Positions 34,391 through 61,170 of a stretch of 64,000 nucleotides of DNA are shown piece by piece. Made by a program: the position numbers and the translations under genes. A model generated the notes under the pieces. That model was not told where the DNA came from and searched no databases. It saw nothing but the letters and a program-made list of their open reading frames with translations. Source of the DNA: Dactylellina haptotyla (Eukaryota > Ascomycota > Orbiliomycetes > Orbiliales > Orbiliaceae); the NCBI GenBank assembly GCA_031310005.1, contig CM062382.1:682001-746000 (forward strand). Direction: 5' to 3'. Each line of letters opens with the position of its first letter. Position 1 is the first letter of the stretch.

Positions 34391-36732
34391 CTAATCATCG
34401 AACTTGATCTTGGTAGCGGTTTTAGCATCGCTGGTATCTCTGTAGAAGGCGCCATAGCTGGCGTGTTCCTTCTTCTTCACTGTTGTGCCGAACTTCATCA
34501 GCTCTTCAGGCACATCCTGTTTGGCTGCCTTGAGGACGTTGATCAAACTAGAAAAATATGACGGTCACGTTAGTAAAGTTGTTGGTGATGCGAAGTGTTA
34601 TTGTTATAAAGAACATACCTTCCACTGTGCGCCTTGTCATGATCCGTGAAAAATGTCACAGCCTTACCCAACTCGCCGGCTCTTCCAGTTCGTCCGATTC
34701 GGTGAACGTAGTCTTCAATTGTCAACGGGAAGGTAACGTTGATAACCAACTTGACGTTCGGAATATCGAGTCCTCTGGCTGCAACATCCGTCGCAACAAG
34801 CACGGGTGTTCTACCCGCCTTGAACTCTGCCAGTGTCGTCGTTCGTGTGTGCTGGTTCAAGTCTCCGTGGATACCGCCCACTTTGATACCCTTTGCGCGC
34901 AAGAAATTTTCTAAGCGTGCGGCTTCCTTCTTGTATAGCGCGAATACGAGGATTCTGTCGCTCTTGGCTGTGGGTGAGGTGCGGTAGTGAGCGTTGATAA
35001 CGTTGAGGAGACGGGATTCCTTGATCCTCCCGTCCGCCAAAACCTCGACGGTCTGTGCAATTCTTGTATTCGCTCTCAGATCACCGTCTTCCGGGCTGTT
35101 GATGTTGACTCGGATAGGTGTGGTCATGAATGTCGATGCGAGCTGTCGAACACTCTGTGGCCAGGTAGCGGTGAACATGAGGGTCTGGCGTTTAGGTGTG
35201 ACCGGGGTAGCTCCCAAAATTGTCTTGATAGCGTCTTCGAATCCCTTGTCCAACATTCTGTCGGCTTCATCGAGGACGACATATCGGGCTTGGGAGATGT
35301 TTGCGGCTCCCTCCTCAAGGAAGTCGTTTAGACGACCAGGGGTTGCGACGATGACTAACGCCTTGCTTAGAGAGTCTCTTTGAGGGTCCTTGGGTACGCC
35401 ACCGTAGATGCAGGTAGCGGCATCCTTGAGACCGGCTGCTTTCGTCAAGAGCTCCACCTGTTCGTAGATTTGCATCGCCAGCTCACGGGTGGGTGAGACG
35501 ATAACAACCTTGGCTCCAGTCTTCTTTGGGTTCCTCTCGGATTTTGGAAGCTGGGCGAGGTACTGAACAGCGGGATAAGCAAAGGCCATTGTCTTTCCGG
35601 AACCGGTCTCAGCTACTCCGATAAGATCTCTGCCAGCGAGGAGGTAGCTCCATGACGCGGCCTGGATAGGTGTCGGTGTCTTGAAAGCCGAGAATGGGGC
35701 AAGGTGGGTCTTGTCAACGGTGGGGAGGTCAGAGAATTTGAGGATGAGGTTGGAGTGGAGTGTATCGGGGGCTTTGGGGTCCGTGATCTTGATCGAGTGG
35801 GTGGTCATGTAGGAGCTGATACTCGTGCTGTCCGCTGGGATTGGCGATGCGGTGCCATTGGCGGTAGTCGGAGCGGTGCTGCCATTGGACTTGGGGGCTT
35901 CGGCAGCTTCCTTGTCGCTCTCGGAACTATCGCTCGAGTCGCTTTCAGGTTCCACTGGCTTCTTGGATTTCCCGTTTATAACTCCATTGGCCTTGGACTT
36001 TTTGGCAGCAGGCTTCTCGTCCTCACTCTCGCCGTCGCTGCTGTCATTCGAGGAGCCATCCGAGTCCACGTCCATCTTGTCTTCAACCGCTGGCTCGACC
36101 ACCTTGGTTGTTTCCACCGCATCGCTCATAACGACCTCATCCACCTCCTCCTCTTCACCATTGGCAGCGGCAGCAGCAGCGGCTGCCTTCTTCTCAGCCT
36201 TCTTCGCTTCCTTCCTGGCAGCCTTCTTCTTCTCTTTCCTCTCCTCCGAGAGCTTCTTCTTCTCCTCCTTGCTCAACCCCGGCTGTCCCTTCTTCGCCTC
36301 CTTCTTCCTCTCTTTCTTCTCTTTTCTCTCCCGTTTCTTAGCATCGTCAGGAACATACTCCCGTCCCTCAACCTCAGCCTTATACTCCTCAAACTTATCC
36401 TTCTCCTCCCTCTTGCGCTTCCTCAGCTCCTTCTGTCTAGCGTACTTGTCCCCCTTCTTCTCACCCTCAGGCTTGTGCTTGAGCTCGTAGGTGTTCAGCT
36501 TCTCCAGGTCCGGCTTCTCTCGCGGGGTACCGTCATCGGGCTTCGATTCGGCATCGCCGTCAGCGGGGATCCACGGTTTCTGCGACTTCTTGGTATCGCC
36601 CTTCTTCTTATTCTTCTTCTTTTCCTTCTTATCTTTCTTTCGTTCGTTGGTGTCGGTTTCGCGAGGGGCGTTCGCTTGCGAGATGAAAGCGGGCATCTCG
36701 TCCGTTTCTTCGGCCTTTCTCTTCTTCGACAT
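34391..36732 (-). CDS. DBP3: ATP-dependent DEAD-box RNA helicase DBP3
   Basis: Model (minus): 36732-34619, 34547-34391, 756 aa. The start is the ATG of MSKKRKAEE; the open frame upstream has no conserved sequence. The N-terminal 330 residues are very lysine/glutamate-rich (nuclear/nucleolar and RNA-binding character). The helicase core shows motif I AETGSGKT (about residue 377), PTREL, TPGRL, DEAD (about 490), the DBP3-typical TATWP variant of the SAT motif, ARGLDIP and [10 protein letters not shown]. The C-terminal exon continues with [12 protein letters not shown], a DBP3-type tail. Yeast Dbp3 works in 60S ribosome biogenesis (27S pre-rRNA processing) in the nucleolus. The N-terminal extension is longer than in yeast. 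Confidence 0.93.
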
Positions 36733-38216
36733 TGTGGCTATTATCGGCAATTGCTCTGCGCAATCGGGTCCTACTTTGGAGCGAGTGAGGGGGTGGTTTT
36801 GCGGAGGGGGTTTAGTGAGAACCACGTGGTGGAGGGTGTATCGAGGTTGAAGAGATTTCTGCGCGGGCAAAGCCAGGCGTTTTTGCTTTGCGACTCCCCA
36901 AGGAAAAAAAAAAAATTCGGCGCGCAGATAAGAGCCGCAGGACAGACGACCCTGATCCCTGCACACGCTGCAACACACGCCCTTGTTGGAATCTTCTTCG
37001 ACCGTTCAAAATACTCCCCGAATTTATTGGGCTGCTATTGCTTGCAGGATTGGCACTCGCCACTGTGGCTGACGTATAGTAATATTTATCAAAGACGTAT
37101 ACGTTTAATACACGTCAGATAGGGCTATAAAATCAGGTTTAGGACAATGTAAATATCTTTACTCGATCAAAGGTATTCCCCAGTAAATATTAAGAATAGA
37201 GAAGTTTATTCGACGCGCAGACTCATAATATTAGCTAGAATATAGAGCTAGTTCTCGTTCTTATTAGTGAATCTTCAGGAGATCTGAAGTATTGGACTGG
37301 AGCTTAACATGGAAGTTCTAAGCAAATTGCAAAAAAAGGCATTAAGCTTGAGTGTGCTTAACCAGCTACTGCAGTGCTTCAAATGTTACTTTTACTATTG
37401 AGCGTGGCACGAATCTTATATTTTTATTCTTTCCTCTTTCATTTTTATAAATAACACGATCTTTTCCACAGTAATTTTATCCTACCCTATTCTTCATCCG
37501 GATATCCGCCGTAAAAGCTGATAAGAGATCAAATAATAAAAGCAATCGGGATATCCACCGCCCAAAAATATAAACGATGAGAAAAGAAGAAGGAACCGAA
37601 CACAACCGAGCGATCAAAGGAATTAGAACGGATAAGAAAAGAAAGCCTGGAATGTTGCGATGGAAACAGACGGAAGGCTCGGAAAGAAAAAAAGAGAAAT
37701 AAACGCCACATAACGCCGCCCAGTGCAATGCCTTTATGTTTTTGGAAATAGAAAAGCCAAATAAGAAGGAAAACAAAAAAGGAGGTATCACCGACGTGAG
37801 GAACGAAGCAGATATGCAAAAGACGCTTGAGAAAAGCAGCACTCGCACTAACGACCGAGGGTGGACCAGTTGGGAGGAATATGGTGGCCACGGTGACCGT
37901 TCGTTGACCGAGCAAAAGTCTGAAAGAATGGAACTGGAAGGCGGCCGCTTGGTCTGTGGACCATTGGATTTCTAGGGATGTCAGGGCGAGGAGGAGGATT
38001 CATATTATTGCTAAGTATGGTAGGGAGATGGGCGGATAGATTGATAATATTTTCTTTGTTTGCGGACGACGGTCCTCCGTACGGGACGGAGCTAGGATTG
38101 CGAGCTGGAGGTGCCATCGATGCAGCTGGAGGCAACACAGGGCCAGGGTGAGGTCGTGGTCTTGGCATCTGGAGAATAGCAAGATGGCTCTGCTTGATTG
38201 GCACAGGATTTTTTCC
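36733..38216. other. Intergenic region
   Basis: Contains the DBP3 promoter (near 36733) and the 3' flank of the CstF-64 gene. AT-rich between 37080 and 37800. The plus-strand open frame running from 35704 is antisense to DBP3 and not supported. Nothing else recognised. Confidence 0.5.
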
Positions 38217-39548: not shown

Positions 39549-41904
39549 TTATATCATCTCTCCCTCTCCATCCCCGTTATCCTCTTCGCTCCAATCTAGC
39601 TCGTCATCGATAGCGGCAGCAGCCCTCTGTACTTCACCAAGCCCACTGATTTCTTCAATGAATCCTGTTTCATTCATAGCTCGCTTGACAAATTCCCAGC
39701 CTCCATCGTCAAAGGCATTCAAGATCTTGTTAGAGCAGGCACTGCAGTGGATATATCCCGGAGCTTGGATTATCTTGTTCTGGAAATTGAACAAGAAGCC
39801 ACGAATTTGATGCGGTACTGTTCCAAGTGGGTGCGAGCCGCGATCCTCGTCTACAGTTTTTGGTGCAGGACATCCGCCACTTCGAAATGAAAGTTAGCAT
39901 ATCAAAAGTATCCAAGATATTAGCGGTGAATGGATGAAACATACAGTAGCGGGTGTTGCACAATAGATACAAACAGTTCGACAAGCAGAGCAGATGCGAT
40001 GGCTGCAATGCCTGGCCTTGTAACTGTGCACATCTGATCTAGGGTTTGATCTTTGATAGACTACAAGTAAGGTATTCGTTAGCACCAGGAGTCAATCCGA
40101 TACAAAGATAGGGGACACTCACGTCAGCTGGGGCGACAACATCGTTACAAAAGTAACAGCCAAGTTCCGATATTGGTTCTTCCGACTTAGCATTCTTCGC
40201 TTCTGGCTCCTCGCTCTCGTCTTCAGTTTCGACTTCAGCACGAACACCGTGTCTCATGACCACAAACGTATCAAAACCGAGGGCAGCGTTCAATACAATC
40301 TTGCCGTAGAACTTTCCGAGCACCGTAGGCAACCATCTGCTCTCTCTCGTGTCCATAAGGAGGAAAATTGCGTCATGCTCTTGAATCAAAGATACAAGCT
40401 TATCATAATCCGCCTTAACTTGCTCTTCGTGAGTCTTATCTCTAATCGGATGCCCGGCCATTGGGACCATCATTCTGAACCCTCGTGAGTCAACATTTGG
40501 ATAGATCTCTTTAAGAGCTTCAGCTGCTCTCGCGGCTTTCGGCTTTCCGCCGTTCTGACAATCCTCAAACGAGAAGAGCGGTTGTCGAACTGGATTCGAA
40601 TAAGAAACGGTGGCGTTATCGATAAATGTGATTTTACGGACCCCCCAGCCGAGGAGAATACGTGAGACATATGCTCCCAACGTTCCAGCTCCGAGTAACA
40701 GGCATTTGGTTTCCTTGATAGCATCGAGATCCAAGTCTGGAGCGATTCTCCATTTCATCAGCCTGTTGTTGAGATCGACCGCAGAATCAGCCAGTCTCGT
40801 AGGATCCATCATCTGCGATAAATCTACAAATCTGGGAAGAAGTTTCTTCTCTCGGTTTCGTTCCCATCCTGTAATTTTTGGCAGAGGTGCATCCTTCAAA
40901 GACAATTCAGAGATATCCGGTTCGCCCTCATCCTTCATCGTCCAAATCATACTTCTTGGATGATGTCTTTGCGCGTGAATGTCTCGGTATCCGACAATGT
41001 TGACCTCCTTCAGCTTCCACCGTTTTCGGATTAAGACCAAAAGGTTCCTCAGGGGCCAACCCGGGTGCTCATCGAAGTTACTCGGGTCAGCGAAAGCTAC
41101 ATAAGCATCGTTCTTCATATCCTTGACATCCTTGAAAAATCCCTGCTCAAATTCGCCAAGTGGCTTGACGGACCAAACGGTTTCCTCGTCCGCCGTTGCA
41201 GCTTTGACTCTTTTGAAAAGGAAGAATCCACGCTGTCTGCTATCAACGCTGTATCGCCAGGTAGAAACGGCGTCGCAGAGGGATGCGGTTTCTTCAGCGT
41301 TGAACTGGCGGCGGTCTCCAACTAAGGTCCATGGTGGGGAGGAGTGTATCGCAGGGAATCCACACCAATAATGGAAGTGATACTTCTTGAGGTCGGCAAA
41401 CGAGATTATCGTAAATGAAGATAGAAGAGACGGAATTGAATAAATAGAGCCATCCAGGATAGCTTCCCAAATCTGCACCCACGAGTCAGATCCGCATTTA
41501 TGAATCAATAATCAATACTCCCAACTAAACGTACCGTTCGGCCGGACTTTTGAATAATATCGCTATAATTTGTCTTTTTAAATTCTTCGATGGTGTTAAC
41601 GTTCCTGATAATACCCTCCCCTCTGAACTGTCCAATGTTTGGCCTACACCATAGCCTCGATTAGTCACACTCTTCTTACATTCTGTCAAATTATAACGTA
41701 CTCATCAGAAGTCAAAGCCGTCGCCCCGATTTGCATGCGACAAGAGTTCGCCGGCGCATCACTCGGGTTAAGCTCGTAAATACCAAGCACCCTTCGAGCC
41801 GAGGTATCTAGCTTGTCATAGTTGATTTTATGGTATGCGAGAGAGGAGAAGAAGGCGAGGTCTATATCTGAGGCGAACGGTGCGAACTGCATCGTGCCGG
41901 CCAT
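39549..41904 (-). CDS. ATG7: Autophagy E1-like activating enzyme ATG7
   Basis: Model (minus): 41904-41702, 41643-41535, 41472-40123, 40060-39945, 39879-39549, 702 aa, the usual fungal length. The N-terminal domain (about 1-330), which recruits Atg3/Atg10, opens with [20 protein letters not shown]. The adenylation domain has the nucleotide loop GAGTLGAY at residues 365-372 and the [13 protein letters not shown] segment. The catalytic cysteine is Cys565 in QMCTVTRPG, placed in the small fourth exon. The C-terminal tail is acidic. ATG7 activates Atg8 and Atg12 as thioesters for conjugation to phosphatidylethanolamine and Atg5, respectively. All introns are GT-AG and phases are consistent. No oddities. 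Confidence 0.96.
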
Positions 41905-57065: not shown

Positions 57066-59459
57066 ATGGCTCCTCCAATTGAAATACTAAATTCGGCTGA
57101 AGCTCCCATTCAAATCCCCACGGACGTCGCAAACGAGGCTATGGATATCGAATCTGACATGGAGATAGTGACGGCAGCTGAGACGACTAATCAAGGAACC
57201 AGAATGGCACCCATCGATGTTGCAAGCTGGGATAGATATAAGGCAGACATTCAAGAACTTTATGTGAAGAAGAAGAAGCCTCTCAAGGAAGTGATCGCTA
57301 CAATGGAAAAGCGAGGTCACTATGGAAGGTAATACATCTGCTCAAACCTAGAGAAAATTAATTAGATTGCATGCTGACATTTCATTCCAAAATCAAGCGT
57401 AGCGCAGTATCAAAAGATGTTTAGAGTTTGGGGCTTCCGCAGGTATAACGTAAACAACAAGGAGAGGGGGAGAGAATTTGTCCCCCCAAACCGAGCAAGT
57501 AAGTCCGATTTAAACCCTCCCCCCCCTTCAACGATAGTAGATCAAAGCTAACAAACCAATAGCGAATAGAAAGAATAATTACTTTACTGGCGACTCTCAC
57601 CAGATGTATGACTCTGACGCAGCTGGTGTATCTGCCTTCGGATATCTATCAAATCCGATGCAGCAGATGCCCGACTTCTTCTCAAGCATCTTTGACATGG
57701 GCCCCAGCACTATGCAGAGTGTTCCGCCCTGGGCAATGGTGAGTGAATAAATCAGGTTAACAAGCAACTCTTCTAATCACCTGTTAATGTATACTAGGGT
57801 AATGATGGATTGGGTTTCCACAGTCACCAGCCGGGCAACTTTAGTGGCGATACGTTCGAAGGTATAATGCAACAACAATCCTTTCAGCAACAGCATTTGG
57901 AAGAATTTAATCCCTATAGCGGAAACCTCGGTACCGTGAGCGGTGGGAAGAAAAAGTTGAGACAACCGATTCATCACGCGGTCCAGGGCGGTTCTTTCCA
58001 AATCGTCAAACTTTTGCTCATGAAAAAGCCCGAGTGCGCTGACTTGCCAACCGATGACGGCAATACACCTCTCTGGATGGCCGCCCAGGGAGGTCACACC
58101 GATATTGCAAGGTTGCTTATTGAAACCTACAAGGTCGATGTCAACTCGACCGCGTTACAAATCCAACGTAATGCTCTTCATCAAGCGGCTCAAAACGGCC
58201 ATCTTGAAGTTGTGAGAATCCTTCTTGACAACGGTGCACAGTTTGAAACTCGAGACGAAGATGGGATTTCACCACTTTGGAGTGCCGCACAGGGTGGTTT
58301 CTCGGAAATTGTTAAGATTCTACTCGAGAACAAGGCCGACCCCGAGAATATCGCCGCGGGCTCTAATAGGCGTCCTCTGCATCAAGCTGCTCAGAACGGG
58401 CATACGGAAGTCTGTAAGATTCTGCTCGAAGCAGGGGCGCAGTATGAGCCTCGAAGTGACACAGGTTGCACGCCTTTGTTCTTCGCAGCCCAAGGTGGCC
58501 ATGCGGATATCGTTCAAATACTGCTTGCCAAAGGCGCTGATCCTAATAATTCTTGGGATGGGTCAAATGGTCGAGGTAGAACTGCCCTTCACCAAGCTGT
58601 ACAGAGAGGTTTTTTGGAGGTAGTCAGGCTTCTATTGGATGCAAACGCGAACCCAGAGCCTGACACCAGCGGTTTCGGCAAAACCTCTGCTGACAGTTCG
58701 TCTGATGAGTCTGACGATTCGGATATCGAGAGCGGAAAGACGGCTATTATCCGAAAACTGCAAAGCCTTCTAAAGAAAGGAAATGCGGAGCGGAAAGGAA
58801 GCAAGAAGGTAAACAAAAAGCAAGATAGAGGCCCGTTCTCTCCTCTTGGAGTGGCAGTTTTGAAGGGCCACTACGAAATTGCAAAGTTGCTTATTGAACG
58901 CAATGCCAATGTCAACTCTGTTCACAGGAGTACCAAAAACACTCCCCTTCATTTGGCCGTCTATAGCGGCAGGGAAGACCTCGTGCGCTTACTCATCGAC
59001 CACGGTGCAAATCCAGATGCGCAAGAAGAGGACGGTTGGGCCCCCATCCTATTTGCTGCCCAGAATGGCGGCAATTGTAGCATCATCAAGATTCTTATCG
59101 ATGCCGGAGCCAACATTAGTACCGCAGCCTACAGTGGAGGCACTGCCTTGCATATTGCGGCTCAGAAGGGATACACCGCAGCAGTCAAGACTCTCTTGGA
59201 TAATGGTGCAATCCTCCAACGGACTAAATCGGGTAGACACCCAGTCCATCAGGCTGTGCAGAATGCACACTTTGAAGTTCTGAAGGTACTTGTGGAGCGT
59301 GATCCTGGCTGCATCCACTTGAAGGATAAGAATGGCTCTAGCGTTATGGCCCTTGCTACTATTGGTGACGAAGAGATTCGATATCAGATGGTGGAGTACC
59401 TTATTGATAAGGGGGCATTGATTCTTGAGGTGGATGAGGATATAAGCTCAAATGATTAG
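57066..59459 (+). CDS. Clr5-domain ankyrin-repeat protein
   Basis: Model: join(57066-57328, 57398-57498, 57563-57738, 57798-59459), 733 aa. A Clr5 domain (about residues 55-105) reads WDRYKADIQELYVKKKKPLKEV and continues across intron 1 to FRVWGFRRYN; this fungal domain is DNA-binding-like. A Q/M/F-rich linker follows (about 125-230), then about 13 ankyrin repeats (from about 235 to 725), interrupted after the seventh by an acidic serine-rich insert (SSSDESDDSD). Introns fall only in the N-terminal third; the ankyrin block is a single exon. Repeats 2-7 alternate between a TPLWxAAQGG type and an ALHQAAQNG type. The likely role is a nuclear or scaffold protein with protein-protein contacts; no target is known. 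Confidence 0.88.
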
Positions 59460-60454: not shown

Positions 60455-61170
60455 TTACGCGGTGACTCCTAGTGTCGGTGCGCCTGGCCGCTTAGACTTG
60501 TAGTCTTTGATCGCGGACTTGATCGCGTCCTCAGCGAGCATGCTACAGTGCAGCTTGACGGGCGGCAGGCAGAGTTCCTTTGCAATTTCTGTGTTCTTGA
60601 TCTTGCCGGCATCGTCGAGGGACATGCCGCGGACGAGTTCGGTGAGATAGGAGGAGGACGCGATGGCGGAACCGCAGCCGAAGGTCTTGAATTTGACATC
60701 ACTGATCTTTCCGGTGGCTTCATCGACGCGGATTTGGAGTTTCATAACGTCACCGCCTATAGAGGGGAGAGGGTGTTAATTATCAAGACATCAAGCAAGG
60801 GTGGCAGAGATTTCGGAACTACGTACAAGCTGGAGCTCCAACCAAACCGGTACCGACGTCCATATCGGCTTTGTTCATGGAGCCGACATTTCGAGGACGG
60901 GAATAATGATCTAGCAGTAGATATCGCGGTCAGCTTTTGGATCTCTTCGTCACCCCAATTCTGATCGATTCTGATATATCACGACAGCACCGGGATTGAG
61001 ATCTTGGGGTACATATCTTTTTCGTGGTAGGATCGTTTCGAAACGGTGCTGACAGCGGGGCGAGGGGCGATATGCGGACGTGGGGTAGCGGCGATGAGGT
61101 TCGATCGTAGGGAGGAGGAGGCGCCGCGCGAGAGGGCCCTCGACGATCTCTGAAGGGTTCTGGAAAACAT
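60455..61170 (-). CDS. ISU1: Mitochondrial iron-sulfur cluster scaffold ISU1
   Basis: Model (minus): 61170-61017, 60916-60827, 60756-60455, 181 aa. The N-terminus (MFSRTLQRSSRAL..., R/S/A-rich, about residues 1-45) is a mitochondrial targeting sequence. The scaffold starts RSYHEKVLDHY and carries the three ligand cysteines in APACGDV, TFGCGSA and KLHCSM, plus the LPPVK motif bound by the mitochondrial Hsp70 chaperone. Intron 2 is ordinary GT-AG. Intron 1 keeps the frame only with AT-AC ends (see the separate entry). With those ends the total is a whole number of codons and the conserved KVLDHY segment is exact. The protein assembles [2Fe-2S] clusters with Nfs1, frataxin and Hsp70. Confidence 0.92.
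60917..61016 (-). other. ISU1: Putative AT-AC intron in ISU1
   Basis: 100 nt. It begins ATATGTACCC after GAAAAAG and ends GATATCTAC before TGCTAGAT. A CTGAC branch-like site lies about 19 nt from the end. The nearest GT-AG pair (GT at 61014, AG at 60911-60912) would put the conserved DHYSRPRNVG segment out of frame. The donor resembles a normal GTATGT with G replaced by A, so U2-type splicing is more likely than U12-type. Confidence 0.72.

Follow-up and report, generated by a model that had tools for sequence, protein, structure and literature searches.

A candidate U2-type AT-AC intron in the ISU1 gene of Dactylellina haptotyla

The ISU1 gene of Dactylellina haptotyla lies on the minus strand at 61170..60455 of the window (the whole 64,000-nt stretch of DNA that was analyzed), and its first intron (61016..60917, minus strand) starts with ATATGTACC and ends with GATATCTAC. 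We consider this, with a probability of roughly 0.85, to be an AT-AC intron of the U2 type that the major spliceosome removes. Its sequence gives good support to the view that it adds one more member to a rare but already known kind of intron; splicing at the AT-AC ends in RNA, the use of the major spliceosome, and the evolution of the ends are what we infer from it. An earlier note on this DNA had placed an AT-AC intron here, restoring a conserved junction and giving a 546-nt coding sequence divisible by three; its coordinates and letters proved exact, and the junction and the coding sequence were both recovered in our analysis.

The joined coding sequence of 546 nt encodes 181 amino acids. 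Exon 1 (61017..61170, minus strand, 154 nt) covers a presumed mitochondrial presequence and the residues SYHEK and ends in phase 1 with a G. It is followed by the 100-nt AT-AC intron (phase 1, its junction pinned by homology), exon 2 (60827..60916, minus strand, 90 nt), an ordinary GT-AG intron of 70 nt (60757..60826, minus strand, GTACGT...TATAG), and exon 3 (60455..60756, minus strand), which contains the LPPVK motif and the stop codon. The product is the Isu1 iron-sulfur scaffold, as it scores 219.3 bits with TIGR01999 (iscU equivalog) against a cut-off of 192.4; the closest solved structure is 5t0v (E 4.5e-67). ISU1 is essential in yeast. A check for a second copy, suggested in the earlier note, found a single ISU1 in the 39.8-Mb genome. 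The search for relatives with a fungal ISU1 DNA pattern yielded no matches in the genome_contigs and viral_contigs sets, and a scan of viral_contigs with the Isu1 protein returned five loci of 61 to 67% identity, which we took for prokaryotic IscU.

The position of the junction is defined by homology. In the predicted mRNA, the AT-AC cut joins ...GAAAAAG to TGCTAGATC and thereby restores the conserved EKVLDHYSRPRNVG. The intron length is not a multiple of three, and retention introduces an in-frame stop, so a full-length product can be made only after the intron is taken out. In the four alignments listed of 31 matched sequences, the joined protein has no gap over the junction and the residue at the junction is always valine; the junction region, yhekvldhysrprnvg, aligns with yhpkviehythprnvg and yhkkvvdhyenprnvg. 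When a cut of the same 100-nt length was shifted from -6 to +6, this valine appeared at shift 0 (the AT-AC cut) alone, and the 12 others lost it. Four AT-AC pairs near the intron leave the frame open; the homology is fitted by 61016/60917 alone, and the other three were rejected. Family models put the AT-AC product 8 to 13 bits ahead of the three alternative products to which they were applied: it reaches 181 bits with NifU_N (169.5 for an AT-AG product, 167.6 for a single GT-AG intron, and 169.8 for one two-intron model) and 219.3 bits with the iscU model (210.8, 209.1, and 211.1, respectively). Codon scores are weak, being 0.65 over the 154 nt of exon 1 and -1.1 in the interior of intron 1, which is not clearly non-coding, versus -17.7 for intron 2; the splice signals and the position of the junction as fixed by homology, not codon statistics, therefore carry the case.

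The splice signals resemble those of ordinary introns, which bears out the U2-type character proposed in the earlier note. The 5' splice site, ATATGT (61011..61016, minus strand), preceded by AAG in the exon, differs from GTATGT only at base +1 and agrees at six of six positions with RTANGT, a consensus of our own. The earlier note proposed that the donor arose from GTATGT by mutation, an AC acceptor then making up for the change. A branch site, GCTGAC, can be read at 60929..60934 (minus strand), with the branch A at 60930 and 13 nt from this A to the end of the intron, and the 3' splice site is TAC (60917..60919, minus strand). For comparison, 16 GT-AG introns of the same genome were selected by donor, CTRAC branch site, and coding flanks. 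Thirteen of them have A at +3, 14 have G at +5, and 10 have T at +6, the ISU1 intron having A, G, and T; AAG/GTATGT itself is present in two of the 16. These introns continue for 10 to 23 nt after the branch A (13 nt in ISU1), and the match in the branch motif follows in part from the way the set was chosen, namely for a good donor and CTRAC, several of its members coming from loci found with AT-AC patterns.

Spliceosomal RNAs of the major type were found in the genome. Two U6 loci (L002 and L003) score above the cut-off, and three U1-like loci (L004, L005, and L006) have E-values of 1.8e-10 or better, all of them below the Rfam gathering score. All three U1-like loci begin with ATACTTACCTT; by eye, L004 is clearly unlike L005 and L006. 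By our own count, this start pairs with AAG/AUAUGU at seven of nine positions, +1 and +4 being lost, and +4 is unpaired in an ordinary GTATGT as well. In the mechanism we propose, U1 snRNA would pair with the ISU1 donor at these seven positions, the branch A at 60930 would attack the A at +1, and where ordinary introns have G as both first and last base, this one would use A and C, the outcome being full-length Isu1.

Several other readings have to be weighed against a U2-type AT-AC intron. The one that survives best, although it is unlikely, keeps the donor at 61016 and uses the acceptor CTAG (60911..60914, minus strand), which makes a 106-nt AT-AG intron and joins ...GAAAAAG to ATCATTATTC; this would yield an Isu1 lacking just Val-Leu, either as the principal product or beside another form. 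The pair 61016/60911, overlooked in the earlier note, is open and in frame, and its AG sits 6 nt past the AC and 19 nt after the branch A, inside the range of the 16 selected introns. However, the two residues lost belong to the conserved KV[LIV][DE]HY, and the score drops by 11.5 bits with NifU_N and by 8.5 bits with iscU. Moreover, in a mutated yeast intron AT-AC was the most efficient pair after GT-AG, according to a summary of that work (Parker and Siliciano, 1993, cited in PMC6726248).

An ordinary GT-AG structure drawn differently is very unlikely. As the earlier note stated, the nearest GT...AG pair (61012/60911) gives the wrong frame; its further statement that the exon holds no phase-1 GT donor was mistaken, as joining GTCCGC at 61079 to the AG at 60911 preserves an open reading frame. 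This is the one open GT-AG solution with a single intron of at least 30 nt, and it pairs a poor donor with a 169-nt intron whose removal deletes the conserved SYHEKVLD and, with it, YHEK. With two short introns and a micro-exon, allowing GT or GC donors and introns of at least 25 nt, 2 of 82 solutions keep YHEK (61012-60971 with 60953-60911, or 60990-60961 with 60953-60911, minus strand). These require introns of 30 to 43 nt, whereas the 16 selected introns, from a scan that began at 45 nt, are at least 50 nt long. The alternative donors (GTCCGC, GTACCC, GTGCTG, and GTGACG) are poor, and every GT-AG alternative replaces conserved residues; one of the two YHEK-keeping products was scored and fits worse. 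For single introns the usable AG is that at 60911, because splicing to an acceptor at 60934 or farther upstream retains a TGA in the reading frame, where it overlaps the branch site. Single introns with GT-AG, GC-AG, AT-AG, GT-AC, GA-AG, GT-TG, and GT-GG ends were all enumerated and none fitted the homology. A stwintron arrangement (nested U2 introns) was likewise rejected, as none of 30 nested solutions keeps YHEK and the first intron base stays A.

Although U12-type AT-AC introns have the same ends and likewise begin with ATAT, removal of ISU1 intron 1 by the minor spliceosome is extremely improbable. Their donor is ATATCC, whereas that of ISU1 is ATATGT. The U12 branch motif has the form TCCTTRAY near the 3' end; it is absent from the ISU1 intron, where the best match (5/8) is not motif-like. 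One source gives this motif as CCTTAAC (PMC3033335). With the U12 5' splice site consensus RTATCCTT, as stated in PMC2846911, the ISU1 donor agrees at four of eight positions. According to one passage of PMC10639083, no convincing minor introns have been reported in Ascomycota or Basidiomycota. A search of the genome for minor snRNAs, of which the earlier note had proposed U11 and U12, gave no matches for either of these, nor for U6atac and U4atac. The lack of matches agrees with that note as far as it goes; the search had no positive control, and since each search went on to score just 39 to 48 of the 972 to 2644 candidates from its first look and the control genomes were prokaryotic (0 of 14 matched), these negatives do not show absence of the minor snRNAs.

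A sequence error, or a dying gene with broken intron ends, is hardly credible: an error would need two wrong bases, 99 nt apart, happening to form AT-AC, while a dying gene is at odds with the intact frame, with the status of ISU1 as the only copy found, and with the like ends in a second gene.

U2-type AT-AC introns are themselves a known, rare class. Class II AT-AC introns are described as using the major spliceosome (Wu and Krainer, 1997, cited in PMC6726248); they resemble the ISU1 intron in their ends, in the donor except for +1, and in having an ordinary branch site, while the present case concerns a fungal ISU1 gene and is predicted from sequence. AT-AC introns are also reported in organisms devoid of U12 snRNAs, namely C. 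elegans (PMC3033335) and Monosiga (PMC2846911). AT-AC accounts for 0.019% of annotated fungal introns in the figures given in PMC7072748 and for 0.03% in SnowyOwl gene models (PMC4084796). In filamentous fungi, rare AT-AC junctions comparable to that of ISU1 are reported for Fusarium graminearum, among other non-canonical introns and with Sanger checks of seven genes shown in a figure (PMC3577648), and for Trichoderma longibrachiatum (69 of 14305 junctions from TopHat mapping, owing to which some may be artefacts; PMC4324775). Those cases are based on RNA-seq, unlike that of ISU1, and an ISU1 gene could be among them. In yeast, the SUT635 transcript has an AT-AC protointron (PMC6726248), likewise a use of AT-AC by a fungal major spliceosome, as we infer for ISU1; however, SUT635 is described as a noncoding RNA in which AT-AC is an alternative to GT-AG, while in ISU1 it is the only enumerated route to full-length Isu1. 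Our search of the open-access literature found no paper combining AT-AC, Isu1, and intron. Thus, the intron is rare, as the earlier note held, though not unprecedented, given the AT-AC introns of other filamentous ascomycetes and a second candidate in the same genome.

This second candidate, found by the genome-wide pattern search and supported by homology, is a 73-nt AT-AC intron at L035 1573..1501 (G000:C3:1483820-1483892, minus strand), in a gene for an AA9 lytic polysaccharide monooxygenase (LPMO; Pfam AA9, 194.8 bits). It reads CAG/ATATGTCTCC...GCTAACATGCCTTCTTCTCTCTAC/GGA, or, with its internal motif, CAG/ATATGTCT...GCTAAC...CTCTAC/GGA, and its donor has the same six bases as that of ISU1. 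The AT-AC splice joins NGVDQ to GSTCVR, and solved AA9 chains show vngvnqg and vngadqgs at this place; the alignments have a one-residue gap right after the Gly in the best two and after the next Ser in the third. In shifts from -4 to +4, Gln-Gly resulted from shift 0 alone. Six single GT-AG alternatives are open; all of them cut into exon 1 and place KYANMPSSLY or more before GSTCVR. The flanks have weak codon scores (1.8 and -0.4), and the two introns that follow have GT-AG ends. AT-AC introns in this genome are therefore probably not confined to ISU1.

The survey from which this candidate came used three strict AT-AC patterns, which gave 62, 62, and 26 matches versus 82, 113, and 127 for the reversed patterns; AT-AC matches being fewer than reversed ones, there is no enrichment, and a survey so narrow and unenriched provides no frequency for AT-AC introns. 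Matches on contig C11 and the locus L037 (the same place as L036) were left out. The first pattern covered 56 loci with 66 pairs, of which 20 rows passed a loose open-frame filter; in a larger set of 122 loci that includes those 56, 84 matched the second or third pattern, with 87 pairs in all, and 42 rows passed. The AA9 locus was the one survey candidate taken to homology search, and it held. Examples judged by eye to be ordinary GT-AG introns are L046, L052, L059, L070, L079, L108, and L126. The survey may have missed further true AT-AC introns; that of ISU1 itself falls outside the spacing of its patterns. On C11, two different pattern matches each recur exactly 140,719 bases apart, and this contig is perhaps a circular molecule of about 140.7 kb, the mitochondrial genome, written more than once.

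A scan that required coding sequence on both sides of an AT-AC pair and a non-coding score (below -3) between its ends found none, the ISU1 intron being missed because its interior scores -1.1. A looser scan of 169 kb, with relaxed flanks and no interior condition, passed 5 of 45 AT-AC signal pairs, 15 of 31 GT-AG pairs, none of 10 GC-AG pairs, and one to three pairs for each of five control dinucleotide combinations (12 to 37 signal pairs each). At these rates, and with most loci outside the window picked by an AT-AC pattern, the coding filter alone is not evidence.

A more far-reaching idea, quite improbable in our view, is that the AT-AC intron acts as a regulatory splice switch, in which its weak ends and the choice between the AC at 60917 and the AG at 60911, or retention, would adjust how much of the sole Isu1 is made and in which form, and that selection, not drift, maintains a few introns of this sort (ISU1 and AA9) in the lineage. 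Taken as a U2-type AT-AC intron, this one makes a clear candidate in an apparently single-copy gene, where gene finders restricted to GT-AG and GC-AG would get the N-terminus of a conserved protein wrong. It also provides a natural test case for the rule that the two terminal bases of an intron act together in the major spliceosome. The finding leaves existing knowledge of splicing unchanged.

A search of the genome for 5.8S rRNA gave no match; the assembly may lack the rDNA, or the first look may have overlooked it. Ten long reading frames of the window were scanned: at E 0.001, Pfam returned nothing for six of them, and for one it gave only weak matches, none of which exceeded the cut-offs. 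Frames at 34570-37005, 40039-41511, and 57798-59459 match a DEAD-box helicase, ATG7, and ankyrin repeats, respectively.
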